The notes below the pieces were generated by a model. The model had not been told where the DNA came from. It was given only the letters and a program-made list of their open reading frames with translations, and did no database searches. A stretch of DNA of 64,000 nucleotides from positions 25,868 to 89,867 of the forward strand of contig JAGLOJ010000082.1 in the NCBI GenBank assembly GCA_023139045.1, given 5' to 3'. This document shows positions 35,693 to 45,041 of this stretch, piece after piece. Source of the DNA: Candidatus Sabulitectum sp. (lineage in GTDB: Bacteria; Fermentibacterota; Fermentibacteria; Fermentibacterales; JCC-6). Both the position numbers and the translations under genes were made by a program. How positions within the stretch are numbered: position 1 is the stretch's first letter; each line of letters opens with the position of its first letter.

Positions 35693-36634
35693 TCACCTCC
35701 AGTCGTTGTTTTTATCAAATGAAATGTCAAAATCGACGCAATTCACATCTATAATATATGCCCCGAGAACTGAATCCGGAGCGTTAAGCGAATAAGATCT
35801 ATCATTTGTGTCCCAGGCTGAAAGCCAGGAAACGGGTTCTTCAGTGTACACAGTTAGTTTCTGCCAGCATGATAAAGTCGGCTGGAGATCGTAACCTGCA
35901 ATAGATTCACCATTCAGGTTATAAAGATCCAGTGCACAGAGGGAATCAACGGGAAGTGCTGATACCAGTTTTACGATACAGCTGCCTTCTCCGATCACAT
36001 ACGAAACAGTATTTTCTTGAATAAAATCTTGCAGAGTGAGTTTTATCGAAGCAATTGAACCTGAATCAATACTGATGGAGTAGTTCAGAGAAGCACTTGA
36101 GCGGTCTCTGACAGATACATTGTAGGAGCCTGAATCAAGCCAGACGTTGATGGCTTCCCCTGGGAAAATAACATCCGGTAAAAGAACCTCGCCTGGAAAG
36201 CCCGATGAATCAGAGACGGAGATGGATACCAGTTGTATTTGGGAGGAGTTAGTTATGGAAAGCCTGTTCGGGCCGTAAACTTTGTTTATGAGTCTGCCGT
36301 ACTCTCTTCGCATTCTATCAAATTCTATGGTTGCTGAATCGACTGCCGCAAAGGATACCTCTCTGTAAGATAAATCAGAGGAGGTCAGTCCGATTATCGC
36401 AGGATAGAGCATTCCTGGTATGGCCAGCCATATTGAACTGTCTTCCGGCAATGGAGAATCAAGCAGGTTTGGTGAAATTTGCATTTCACCGGGCATAACA
36501 CTGTATACCGCAACCAGATCTCCGGAATCAGCGGCATTGTGTATCTCAATCAGCGAAACAGAGCCAGGCTGCAAGGAAAAGAAGTTGAAGAAAGAAAGAA
36601 GCACGGCCAGTATCGGTATCAGTGTCAGTACCAT
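35693..36634 (-). CDS. exported hypothetical protein with a possible divergent copy of the 39.7-44.0 kb module
   Basis: N-terminal TM; LSITNSSQIQLVSISVSDSSGFPGEVLLPDVIFPGEAINVWLDSGSYNVSVRDRSSASLNYSISIDSG. Confidence 0.5.
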   Translation of the reverse strand: MVLTLIPILAVLLSFFNFFSLQPGSVSLIEIHNAADSGDLVAVYSVMPGEMQISPNLLDSPLPEDSSIWLAIPGMLYPAIIGLTSSDLSYREVSFAAVDSATIEFDRMRREYGRLINKVYGPNRLSITNSSQIQLVSISVSDSSGFPGEVLLPDVIFPGEAINVWLDSGSYNVSVRDRSSASLNYSISIDSGSIASIKLTLQDFIQENTVSYVIGEGSCIVKLVSALPVDSLCALDLYNLNGESIAGYDLQPTLSCWQKLTVYTEEPVSWLSAWDTNDRSYSLNAPDSVLGAYIIDVNCVDFDISFDKNNDWR

Positions 36635-39691: not shown

Positions 39692-40375
39692 TCAACCGCC
39701 GCCTGAGTCAATGTCGCTTAAGCTGACATTCCAGGTATAGGCACGACCGTTGCCTGCAACAACGACGCTCCATCTGGTGTAGGTGTCTCCATCCTCATCC
39801 TCGATGTAAATATCGTAAGTGTCAGGCTGGACATAGGCGGTGTATGTGTCTCCCGGGTAAAGGATCTCTCCATCAAGATGATTATCGCCCCAGTCATCGC
39901 CGTCTGAGGGCGATATCCAGATTCCGTTAACATCCCAGTTATTCAGATTGTTGGTGATGGTTACAGGGCATTGACCTGCATTTTGAAGGTTTGCTGCTGA
40001 TGACGATACATCATCCATGTCATCGAGAGTGACTCTCCAGCTGAAGCCATCTGATCCAATGCGGATATCATGCAGTGTGTAGGTGTCTCCATCCTCGTCG
40101 GTTACCTGCAGGTCATAAACACCGGGCTGAACCATAACCTCTGCCGTTTTTTCAGGCACCAGAACATCTGTGCCGGGAAGATGGTTGGAGCCCCATACAT
40201 TGTCTGTACCTCTGCTTATGTACACGCAATGGATGTCGTAATTCTCCAGTCCGTTGGTTACTGCAAGGGGAACTTTTTCCAGGCAGCCGGTTGCAGGGAG
40301 AATAATCACTGCAGCGAGTATGCAGAGAAGAGCTTTGCTGTTCAAGAGTATAACCCCCTTTTTATCGTAATACAA
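39692..40375 (-). CDS. lipoprotein with two ~85-aa 'DEDGDTYT' modules
   Basis: Signal peptide ..ILPATGC; modules VPLAVTNGLENYDI..WGSNHL..YDLQVTDEDGDTYTL and CPVTITNNLNNWDV..WGDNHL..YDIYIEDEDGDTYTRW. Confidence 0.75.
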   Translation of the reverse strand: MYYDKKGVILLNSKALLCILAAVIILPATGCLEKVPLAVTNGLENYDIHCVYISRGTDNVWGSNHLPGTDVLVPEKTAEVMVQPGVYDLQVTDEDGDTYTLHDIRIGSDGFSWRVTLDDMDDVSSSAANLQNAGQCPVTITNNLNNWDVNGIWISPSDGDDWGDNHLDGEILYPGDTYTAYVQPDTYDIYIEDEDGDTYTRWSVVVAGNGRAYTWNVSLSDIDSGGG

Positions 40376-40414
40376 TCAAGGCTGTTTCTTTATTCCGTAT
40401 CTATCTCTATCCGG

Positions 40415-40783
40415 TCAATCAATATCTGCGGGAACCACTTCCCAGAGCAAATCATCCTCTTCCACTTCTCTGTCCCATATTGTGTATGTGCTTCCGTCCT
40501 CGTCCACCACCTGCACGTCATATGTATCCGGAAGAACTGTTATTTCATGGGATTCTCCGGGTAGAAGCACTTTCCATTCAGGCATAGAATTGATACCCCA
40601 TTCATCCTCAGAACTGCTGCTGACATATATGTGTTCTATGTTTTTGTTTTCCAGATCGTTGATGATGATGATTTTTGCAGGGTCAAAGCAACCCGCAGTT
40701 AGAATAAGCAGAAGCAGTGCCGCGACGAGATACGACTTACCCATGGGTTTCCTTTCTTTTTGCTCAAAAAACAGGAGACACAT
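40415..40783 (-). CDS. lipoprotein with one DEDGDTYT-type module
   Basis: Lipobox LTAGC; IIIINDLENKNIEHIYVSSSSEDEWGINSM..LLPGES..YDVQVVDEDGSTYTIWD. Confidence 0.75.
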   Translation of the reverse strand: MCLLFFEQKERKPMGKSYLVAALLLLILTAGCFDPAKIIIINDLENKNIEHIYVSSSSEDEWGINSMPEWKVLLPGESHEITVLPDTYDVQVVDEDGSTYTIWDREVEEDDLLWEVVPADID

Positions 40784-40821
40784 GATGCCCCCTGTTTCTG
40801 TGAGCTAAAGCGTTCAAATTC

Positions 40822-41772
40822 TTAATCCATATCGGCGAGGTCAACTTCCCAGTAGAAGCCATCCTCATCTACATCAATACCCCTGAGGGTGTAGGTGTCA
40901 CCATCTTCGTCTTCGACCTTGAAGTCGTAGGTATCATCCGCAGGAACGTAGAATGTGAATTCCTCACCGGCTGAAATAAGCTCGGAACCCAGGCGATCTT
41001 CGCCCCAGGGCCCGTCGCTGGCGCTACTGTAGACATACCAGATTGTCCAGTCTCCAAGTCCATTGTAGATGGTGATGGCGGCATCTCCATCGGAACCTGC
41101 CATCACAAATGAATTGTCCATATCGGAAAGGTCAACTTCCCATACGAAGCCGTCCTCGCCTACCCAGACATCCCAGAGCAGGTATTCGTCATCATCTTCA
41201 TCAATGCATTTAAAGTCGTAGTAGTCGCCGGACGTTACTTCAAATGATACAGACTCGCCCGGCTCGAGAACCTCGGAACCGAAGCGATCCTCGCCCCACT
41301 CATCGCTTTCGGAGAGGCTGCAGTATCCGTTCCAGAGGGTCCAGCTAGCAAGACAGTTCTCGATGGTTACGGTTGCTTTTTCTGCATCAGACTGCAAGTC
41401 GCCGTCTTCGAGGGTAACTGCCCATTCGTATCCGTCTTCACCGATTTCAACTTCCCAGAGGGTGTAGGAATCATCATCTTCATCAATGATCATGATATCA
41501 TAGATACCTTCTTCATCGAGAATGATGGTGATTTCGTCGCCGGATTCAAGTTTTCTGTCTATACGATCTTCACCCCGGGGACCGTCTGAAAGATCAACAT
41601 AGATTTCCTCAATATCCCAGCCGTCAAGTTCGTTAATGATGACAACTTCGATCTCGACTTCTGCAACCTCAACCGGCTCATCCGTGTCAGCCACAGGTGC
41701 TTCACCGTCACCACACGCAAAAAACAGCACCGGAAAAACCGCAAGTGCCATAAGCAGATGTAATTTTTTCAT
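40822..41772 (-). CDS. lipoprotein with three DEDGDTYT-type modules
   Basis: Signal peptide ..LFFACGDG; three modules each ending W[EA]V[DT]LxDxD. Confidence 0.78.
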   Translation of the reverse strand: MKKLHLLMALAVFPVLFFACGDGEAPVADTDEPVEVAEVEIEVVIINELDGWDIEEIYVDLSDGPRGEDRIDRKLESGDEITIILDEEGIYDIMIIDEDDDSYTLWEVEIGEDGYEWAVTLEDGDLQSDAEKATVTIENCLASWTLWNGYCSLSESDEWGEDRFGSEVLEPGESVSFEVTSGDYYDFKCIDEDDDEYLLWDVWVGEDGFVWEVDLSDMDNSFVMAGSDGDAAITIYNGLGDWTIWYVYSSASDGPWGEDRLGSELISAGEEFTFYVPADDTYDFKVEDEDGDTYTLRGIDVDEDGFYWEVDLADMD

Positions 41773-41902
41773 TATCCCTCCCTTGGTATTTGAACGTCTT
41801 TCTCACCGAACAGAAGACAATAAGAGAACACGAAGGCCGAGTAAAGACTGCTGGAAACGGAGATCGCTGTACGATCCCCGTTCCCTGCTCTCGGTCGCGT
41901 TT

Positions 41903-42244
41903 CTAGTGGCAAATATCGGCAAACTCAATGCGCCAGTTGTATCCATCGGAGCCGATCTCGACTTCCCAGAGTATGTATTCATCTCCGTCTTCGTCAACTG
42001 CCATAATGTCGTAATTACCGGGAGAGACCTTTAATGTTATCTCATCTCCAGGTTTAAGTATTTCGTGGATGAGATTGTTGCTCCAGTCTTCATCGACTGA
42101 AGGATCGATGTAGATCTCTTCGATGTCCCAGGCGCCAAGGTCGTTAGTAATCTTTACAGGAACATTGCCACCGCAGCCCGATATCAGAGTTGCGATAAGT
42201 GCTACCGTAAGCAGAGCCGTAACCTTCTTCATTATTTCCTCCAT
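41903..42244 (-). CDS. lipoprotein with one DEDGDTYT-type module
   Basis: Lipobox LISGC; VKITNDLGAWDIEEIYIDPSVDEDWSNNLI..LKPGDEITLKVSPGNYDIMAVDEDGDEYILWEVEIGSDGYNWRIEF. Confidence 0.78.
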   Translation of the reverse strand: MEEIMKKVTALLTVALIATLISGCGGNVPVKITNDLGAWDIEEIYIDPSVDEDWSNNLIHEILKPGDEITLKVSPGNYDIMAVDEDGDEYILWEVEIGSDGYNWRIEFADICH

Positions 42245-42329
42245 TTGAAAAAAACAGAATCAACCACTGAACCGGCACAGGTAACATTAACACGTAGAAT
42301 AAGGCAGAGACAGATACAGGTAAACCCCG

Positions 42330-43286
42330 TTACGGGATGAATCGATCAAGATCGTTCATTGTGATATCCCAGCCGCTGACCTCTTCTGAGATGGTCACTC
42401 CCAATCTGGTGTATGTGTCATTGTCTTCATCCACCACTCTGATGTCATAAGTGCCGGGGTCCAGCAGCAGTGAGTACTGTTCCTTAGGCTCGATTCCAGA
42501 AGCAATCAGATGATTCCTGCTCCAGTTGGTGTCTGTAGAATTTCTGTGATAAACACCTGTGATAATCCAGTCATCAAGGGCATTGCAGAGAACCAGTCTG
42601 CTGCTGCCGGTACCCGACTCTTCAAGAGGAGTCATAATGTAATCTCTTGTAATTTCCCAGCCGTAGTTTAACCGGTTATGGGTAATCGCAGTTGTTGCGC
42701 AGGTGTACTTGTTCCTCAGGTTGTCCTCTGCAGTGAGGAGGTAAAAACCCGGGTTGACCCGAACGTTCAGTGTTCTGCCGGGCCAGAGAATGAAGGCTCC
42801 AAGTCTGTCTGGACTGCTCTCCGGGTTTTCTTCTTCAGCTGCAACATTGAGCCAGTAAACATCTTTTTCCCGAAGGGCGTTTGTGATTCTGATAGTGCCT
42901 GTTCCTGAACCGGCCCAGTATTCTCCACCTGATTCAACAGTTTCTTCAAACACTGCACGGTTTGCCATGGATAATTCGATTTGCAGGGTCTCTGTAGAGT
43001 CGGTGATTGTCAATCCGGAATTGTAAATGCCGCCATCCAGGTCGATTGCTTCGATTGTTGAACTGCCGCGGGGAATGGTGATCTGGATGGCTTCACCAGG
43101 CCTGAGCTGATGTTCAAGATGGTTTATGGTATCGCTTGCGAGATAGATTTCGCTCAATGTTATATCCGGCAAGCCGTTTATAACTCTGAGCGATGTTTCT
43201 TTCTGTATATCAGGCTTGTAGAGCAGTGCAAGCATCACTGCTGCAATAGTGCAGGAAAGTAGAATAATGTACTTAGTTCGGCTCAT
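42330..43286 (-). CDS. membrane-anchored protein with three modules (two degenerate)
   Basis: N-terminal TM; TSLRVINGLPDITLSEIYLAS; GTIRITNALREKDVYWLNV; SRLVLCNALDDWIITGVYHRNSTDTNWSRNHL..YDIRVVDEDNDTYTRLGV. Confidence 0.72.
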   Translation of the reverse strand: MSRTKYIILLSCTIAAVMLALLYKPDIQKETSLRVINGLPDITLSEIYLASDTINHLEHQLRPGEAIQITIPRGSSTIEAIDLDGGIYNSGLTITDSTETLQIELSMANRAVFEETVESGGEYWAGSGTGTIRITNALREKDVYWLNVAAEEENPESSPDRLGAFILWPGRTLNVRVNPGFYLLTAEDNLRNKYTCATTAITHNRLNYGWEITRDYIMTPLEESGTGSSRLVLCNALDDWIITGVYHRNSTDTNWSRNHLIASGIEPKEQYSLLLDPGTYDIRVVDEDNDTYTRLGVTISEEVSGWDITMNDLDRFIP

Positions 43287-44049
43287 CGAGATCCAGAACT
43301 GTTACTTGCCAGAGCACCCCATGATCATCCAGTTCCACCTGCCACAGGGTATATGTGTTCCCGTCGGAATCCACCAGTCGGATGTCGTAAACACCTTCAC
43401 CCAGCAGGATCTTCATTTCCGCACCACTGGTGAGAATGCTCGATCCCAGCCTGTCATTGCCCCATGAATCACTCTCGCTGGAAGAGCAGTACACATTCCA
43501 TATGGAAAGGTGCTCAAGATTGTTTCGGAGTGCGAATTCGCAGTTTCCGGTACCTGTTGAAATGCTGGCAGGTGATGGTGTTATGAATGAATCTGGACCG
43601 ACATCTGGAGTTCCCTCCATAATTTCACTGAGAAATTCATTCAGAGTTGGTACAAGATTCAGCTTCCACCGCTGGTTTTCCCTGACAAATTGATAAGATA
43701 CGATCCGGTTGCCCTGACCGGAAAGCAGATATGCTTTTTCATTTCTGAATTCAATGGAAATCACAGTTTCTGAGAATGCAAGCAGATCAGTATCTGAAAC
43801 AAGCGAGGCAAGCAGTTCTTCTCCCCGGTTGTCAAAGGGAACTCCAACCTCAGTGTAAATCCCGGCAATTTCATTAAGAAGCTGATTGGTGTTGTCTGAA
43901 AGACATCTGGAAAGGCCATGCCAGTTTTCCTCGGTGGCGTTTTCCATAAGGGCATTATAGCTTTCAACCACTTCCTTCTGATCACTGCTCCAACCGATGC
44001 ATGCAACTGTCAGCAAGAAAAGAGCAGAAATCACAAGTTCTTTTTTCAA
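43273..44049 (-). CDS. lipoprotein: unknown N-terminal domain plus one C-terminal DEDGDTYT-type module
   Basis: Lipobox LTVAC; C-terminal CEFALRNNLEHLSIWNVYCSSSESDSWGNDRLGSSIL..YDIRLVDSDGNTYTLWQVEL. Confidence 0.75.
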   Translation of the reverse strand: MKKELVISALFLLTVACIGWSSDQKEVVESYNALMENATEENWHGLSRCLSDNTNQLLNEIAGIYTEVGVPFDNRGEELLASLVSDTDLLAFSETVISIEFRNEKAYLLSGQGNRIVSYQFVRENQRWKLNLVPTLNEFLSEIMEGTPDVGPDSFITPSPASISTGTGNCEFALRNNLEHLSIWNVYCSSSESDSWGNDRLGSSILTSGAEMKILLGEGVYDIRLVDSDGNTYTLWQVELDDHGVLWQVTVLDLDEPN

Positions 44050-44180
44050 AGCAAACTCCTCTCCTTGTTTGTTTCTTTCAGGACTCTACCCGTTTGAAGT
44101 CAGCGGGTCAACATCCACCTGTTGATTTTTTCCCTTATCGGTTATTATCGGTGATAATAAATGAGTAACCGGAGGAGTTT

Positions 44181-45041
44181 ATGGAGAGTGTTTCGTTTCC
44201 CCGAATGGTAGAGCTTGATACAGTTACAGGTCTTCCACCGAGGAAGATACTGGATCATGATCTGCCAGTGCTTCTAAGGTCTATGGGTACAGCCAGCCTG
44301 CCTATGTGTTCCATAATGATAGACATTGATCATTTTAAGAAATTCAATGACAAATACGGTCATGACACTGGTGATCTGGTTCTGCGCCATGTTTCATCTC
44401 TTATTAGGAAAGCGGTAAGGTTTCGCGGGGAAGCATACAGGTACGGCGGGGAAGAAATTACCGTACTGATGCTTAACACTAATGGAGTTGAGGGGCTGGC
44501 CACAGCAGAGAGAATTCGCCTTGTTGTGGAAAATTCAGAGGTAATGGCAACGGTAGATAGACAGGAAGAGCCACTTTCTGTTCGGATATCTCTTGGAGTG
44601 GCATCAACTGACACGGTTGACGGTTCAGCACTTCTTGTTTCTTCCGATCGGGCTTTGTACAATGCAAAATCCAATGGCAGGAATCAGGCAATTCTCTTCA
44701 GAAGCGACAGGAAGCAGGCAGTTACCACCACCATTATTGACGTTCACTTCCCATCCAGGTCTGCAATTATCGGCGGCAACTACATACTCCTGAAAAAGTG
44801 GTTCAGTTACAGCAATCCCACCGAAATTGAGGCCAGAGAGATCAAGGACCCCAACACAGACAGCAGTGAATTTGCCGAAGGTCCCCTACCCCCTTACGGT
44901 CTGGTTGAGGCAGAAATACGAGGCAGGGTGAGTGCAATTGAGCGTCGCGGGAACCACACGCACTTTAAATTCGAGGTTAAGAGCTACATCATCGATCTTA
45001 TGTTCAAGTATATTCAGGACACTCTCAATGCCCACCATTAG
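44181..45041 (+). CDS. diguanylate cyclase (GGDEF domain, GGEEI signature)
   Basis: DTVTGLPPRKIL, IDIDHFKKFNDKYGHDTGD, YRYGGEEI; additional uncharacterised C-terminal ~105 aa. Confidence 0.88.
   Translation: MESVSFPRMVELDTVTGLPPRKILDHDLPVLLRSMGTASLPMCSIMIDIDHFKKFNDKYGHDTGDLVLRHVSSLIRKAVRFRGEAYRYGGEEITVLMLNTNGVEGLATAERIRLVVENSEVMATVDRQEEPLSVRISLGVASTDTVDGSALLVSSDRALYNAKSNGRNQAILFRSDRKQAVTTTIIDVHFPSRSAIIGGNYILLKKWFSYSNPTEIEAREIKDPNTDSSEFAEGPLPPYGLVEAEIRGRVSAIERRGNHTHFKFEVKSYIIDLMFKYIQDTLNAHH

Follow-up and report, generated by a model that had tools for sequence, protein, structure and literature searches.

What does a bacterium do with six consecutive exported proteins built from eleven copies of one ~85-amino-acid module, and does such an array reflect continuing duplication or an old and settled part of the genome? 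The locus that raises this question lies at 39692-44049 on the minus strand of the window, by which we mean the whole 64,000-nucleotide stretch of DNA analyzed here, from the genome of a Sabulitectum-type member of Candidatus Fermentibacterota (formerly Hyd24-12). Among its relatives only Sabulitectum silens has been described, a strict anaerobe of marine sediment with a proposed metabolism based on the fermentation of amino acids and sugars (PMC5763382). The six genes, p1 to p6, hold 1, 3, 1, 3, 1 and 2 modules, and both these counts and the ORF coordinates match the initial annotation of this DNA exactly.

All features of the array lie on the minus strand. The first gene, p1 (43273-44049), encodes an N-terminal helical/beta domain followed by one module (43285-43536, residues 172-255); the N-terminal part probably adopts an NTF2-like fold, with a model of moderate confidence whose topology fits that assignment and which matched NTF2-like entries, all at E > 1e-3. 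The three modules of p2 (42330-43286) comprise p2a (42960-43190) and p2b (42633-42896), both strongly divergent yet kept across genomes, and p2c (42345-42596). They are followed by the single module of p3 (41903-42244, module 41909-42157), the three modules of p4 (40822-41772, modules 41398-41649, 41116-41373 and 40825-41076), which is the most acidic of the six proteins (29% Asp+Glu), the single module of p5 (40415-40783, module 40418-40675), and the two modules of p6 (39692-40375, modules 40013-40267 and 39707-39964). Because the end of p1 overlaps the start of p2 by 14 bases and the remaining intergenic gaps are short (~40 to 130 bases), the array looks like a single transcription unit. Promoter- and terminator-like sites occur no more often than in shuffled sequences, and none stands out.

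Upstream of p1, a 131-base gap (44050-44180) leads to a divergently transcribed gene for a GGDEF protein (44181-45041, plus strand) that marks the site at which module genes are conserved across the phylum; the gene order around this gap is conserved over much of the phylum, and the gap is a possible control region common to both genes. Elsewhere in the window, an exported-looking protein (35693-36634, minus strand) contains a diverged and very weak copy of the module, clearest at 36065-36244, and adjoins a PMT-like glycosyltransferase, a pairing also present in four other loci (L059, L060, L061 and L071).

Export signals are present as initially proposed, with lipoboxes in five of the six window proteins (p1 LTVAC, p3 LISGC, p4 LFFAC, p5 LTAGC, p6 PATGC) and, after a hydrophobic N-terminus, in most orthologues of the array proteins. 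The exception is p2, whose hydrophobic N-terminus has no recognizable lipobox and appears to be an uncleaved membrane anchor. Since Asp is absent at the +2 position of all five lipoboxes, the predicted lipoproteins would be located in the outer membrane.

To assess homology among the modules, we scored them with a profile derived only from other genomes, using 1,200 shuffled proteins as control. Ten of the eleven window modules scored 33.6-113 bits, far above the shuffles (best 16.6, next 6.1), in agreement with the earlier view that the repeats are homologous. The remaining module, p2a, is marginal by itself at 16.7 bits, and we accept it as a module because it is conserved in orthologues, being found at the same place in 8/8 of those seen. 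A second profile, built solely from Pseudomonadota and Spirochaetota modules, recovered nine of the eleven at 31-57 bits (shuffles up to 8.6), with no significant match for p2a or p2b. In 35 distant modules found by profile search, the consensus residues are widely kept (Asn in 31/31 having a residue there, Trp in 34/35, D55 in 28/35 and Tyr in 25/30), and the window modules retain this Asn, Trp and Asp together with the hairpin Asp and Tyr, except in p2a, p2b and at a few other sites. We regard the common origin of the modules as shown.

The domain itself has no name in the public family libraries used for genome annotation. Scans of the window proteins, 121 aligned modules and Pseudomonadota relatives against Pfam-A and NCBIfam gave no match at curated cut-offs, and the module had no match in a PHROG family scan, among PADLOC models of anti-phage defence (at E 0.1), or in PDB sequence searches (below E 1e-3), consistent with the original remark that no function was known for such stretches. 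Sub-threshold Pfam, NCBIfam, PHROG and PADLOC matches were set aside as chance. A literature search found no paper on the domain.

Within Fermentibacterota the module is found in 24/24 genomes of at least 90% completeness and at most 5% contamination, and in 40/42 genomes overall. The window's own genome has 15 module matches. It carries a separate two-module protein on another contig (C10, L009:7276-7893) and further single modules on three more (L010, L025 and L026 on C137, C46 and C62, the last one weak). Similar two-module proteins recur in many Fermentibacterota loci, among them L085, L086, L089, L103 and L116, which suggests that the phylum has a second conserved site.

The initial annotation had also mentioned loosely similar stretches in uncharacterized proteins of other bacteria, and such relatives exist in Pseudomonadota (37/399 sampled genomes, about 9%) and Spirochaetota (18/247, about 7%), with 2/274 genomes in Marinobacter's class, Marinobacter itself counted; every one of these outgroup draws includes the genome on which it was centered. 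Annotated as "hypothetical protein", the relatives are assigned to this domain by profile search (E down to 1e-27), share the N-W-G-D-L-G-YD-DG pattern and are mostly small, single-domain and exported. They differ from the array proteins in usually having one or two modules behind a plain signal peptide, often as one copy per genome, and many of them contain two paired Cys residues but not the complete DxDGD loop. As the Pseudomonadota relatives mostly carry plain signal peptides, the domain as such does not entail a lipid anchor. In many Pseudomonadota modules (L182-L201) the Cys pair, perhaps a disulfide, flanks the central hairpin and replaces the acidic loop. Module genes also occur as neighboring pairs in Halopseudomonas and Marinobacter (L118, L123, L125, L128); the Marinobacter genome searched has four modules, and Pseudomonas neustonica has one. 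In one Pseudomonadota protein (L199:1186-2259) two copies of another repeat, with no Pfam match, precede the module.

We then asked how old and how stable the array is. The 1-3-1-3-1-2 layout is identical in seven genomes of one genus-level group, namely the window genome and those of loci L059, L061, L062, L064, L065 and L066. In a module tree, the modules cluster by position rather than by genome. Support is strong for p1, p2a, p2b, p2c, p5 and p4c, and the remaining positions are placed less firmly, since the alignment has only 86 columns. Ratios of dN/dS are roughly 0.1-0.3 for every array gene—rough values, as several pairs approach or exceed saturation in dS—and point to purifying selection on all of them. 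Between genera, the module counts differ, with a 1-3 pair in Fermentibacter, a single protein of two or three modules in Aegiribacteria, and a 1-3-2-1-2 arrangement in UBA6080. The genomic site is shared, with a GGDEF-amidohydrolase-NadC-pantothenate kinase block adjoining the module genes of Sabulitectum, Aegiribacteria and Fermentibacter in most loci that reach far enough.

From the shared layout, the orthology of positions and the differing counts between genera, we conclude that expansion of the array preceded the diversification of the genus and that little has changed in it afterwards. Recent events in the genus-level group are limited to the additional gene px of L058 and L063, the p4a of L065, and L060's loss of p3; px (L058:4264-5004 and L063:1714-2478) lies inside the array and apparently derives from the second module of p4. 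The initial annotation had read the variation in copy number as ongoing duplication and divergence, and had taken p2a and p2b to be degenerate modules that attest to it. Both ideas are contradicted by the conserved layout in six other genomes, the grouping of modules by position and the signs of purifying selection. Moreover, p2a and p2b take the same divergent form in every species seen, with dN/dS of about 0.2-0.3, which argues that they are specialized rather than decaying.

The reading that we favor, and to which we assign a probability of roughly 0.5, takes the array for an ancient group of cell-envelope lipoproteins, operon-like and inherited vertically, in which a single unnamed ~85-residue beta-sandwich domain is the building block, with the modules probably serving as binding or scaffold units and their positions specialized. 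The predicted lipidated proteins would sit in the outer membrane, where their acidic modules may serve in binding or as scaffolds, with positions adapted to different partners, most likely polymers or proteins of the envelope. We favor such an envelope-bound role on the basis of the export signals, the acidic composition, the repeat architecture and a single fusion: in a spirochaete protein (L177:2993-4246) the module is joined to an NlpC/P60 cell-wall hydrolase (Pfam E 1.4e-18). This fusion fits a role in envelope binding, although it is one case and lies outside Fermentibacterota.

A competing explanation concerns the D-x-D-G-D-x-Y hairpin of each module, which the initial annotation regarded as a Ca2+-binding loop: the proteins could be Ca2+-dependent surface adhesins in which each hairpin binds Ca2+ and stiffens an acidic adhesive fiber. 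Several observations are in keeping with this idea. The three Asp residues are kept in 9/9 orthologues of p2c and p3 and almost without exception in p4a-c and p6a. With calculated pI values of 4.0-4.4 the proteins are strongly acidic, the motif forms a tight hairpin between two long strands, and a divergent GGDEF gene stands next door across the phylum. However, p1, p5, p2a and p2b as a rule lack the full three-Asp set (p5 has lost the DxDxD loop, and most p1 orthologues have Asn for the third Asp), p6b is mixed, and only 5/33 distant modules from profile searches have the full set, even with one draw center, first found by pattern, counted among them. The Gly that follows the third Asp in a canonical DxDxDG loop is also missing, with Thr in its place, and no EF-hand-like loop of three Asp plus Gly was found family-wide. 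We gave no weight to the apparent conservation in our first outgroup set, whose loci had been chosen by their DEDGD pattern, so that all pattern-picked relatives keep the loop by which they were found and overstate its conservation.

What is constant more widely in the hairpin is its first Asp, together with the Gly and Tyr; in Fermentibacterota modules the first Asp is kept in 141/143 and the Tyr in 138/143, and both are common elsewhere. The simplest reading is that the hairpin is structural and that some positions may have been adapted to metal binding, with p2c, p3, p4 and p6a as candidates; the loop is not a feature of the family, and we consider Ca2+-dependent adhesins unlikely. More doubtful still is a broader idea, in which the modules would constitute a phylum-defining envelope system whose position-specialized lipoproteins jointly form a layer at the outer membrane or cell surface and bind Ca2+ only at the three-Asp positions.

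Fold comparisons leave room for several functions. Using the alignment of 121 modules as input, AlphaFold—a check suggested at the outset—modeled the last module of p6 as a six-stranded beta sandwich with high confidence (pLDDT 94.1, pTM 0.85), in which D-E-D-G-D-T-Y is the tight hairpin joining the two longest strands. Neither this model, searched against the PDB and against viral models, nor that of p1, searched against the PDB, had a match below E 1e-3, and for want of a PDB match at that level we claim only a beta sandwich. The best PDB fold match was a sandwich of similar size, chain Y of the Kuenenia hydrazine dehydrogenase complex (6hif_Y; E 3.4e-3, TM 0.49/0.53), which we take to be a small assembly-type factor of that complex and which recurred among the fold matches of the p1 model. 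The array proteins could, by analogy, work in the periplasm as assembly or accessory factors, binding envelope enzyme complexes and organizing them. Yet the 6hif_Y match lies above 1e-3 at 16% identity with no sequence match, any kinship being tentative, and other sandwiches fit equally well or better by TM-score: an NMR structure of Eubacterium rectale YP_002937094.1 (2mca) is of similar size and has the best TM-score of the top matches (0.65/0.60; 14% identity, E 4e-3), while transthyretin-like and VHL beta domains match part of the topology (TM about 0.5-0.57) without significance or a family profile match. With no neighboring redox complex among the genes scanned, we regard assembly factors as quite improbable; the sandwich is a generic fold with which many roles could be compatible.

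Least probable is a rapidly changing paralogue array, for instance of immunity proteins or antigenic-variation lipoproteins, which the tandem paralogy, the extra gene px of L058 and L063 and the p3 lost from L060 might suggest, but which conflicts with the layout fixed in seven genomes, orthology by position and purifying selection, and with the lack of any PADLOC match or of any module relative in viral contigs or phage records, only two plasmid records (none with one query, two with another) holding any relative of the wider family.

The reading of the array as old envelope lipoproteins thus remains the one we prefer. Family libraries have had no entry for this exported domain, which is universal in one little-studied anaerobic phylum and occurs here and there in two large ones; defining it would give a name to many "hypothetical proteins". 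The fixed array provides a clean case of old paralogues specialized by position, and the envelope function, if true, would inform how Fermentibacterota build their cell surface.
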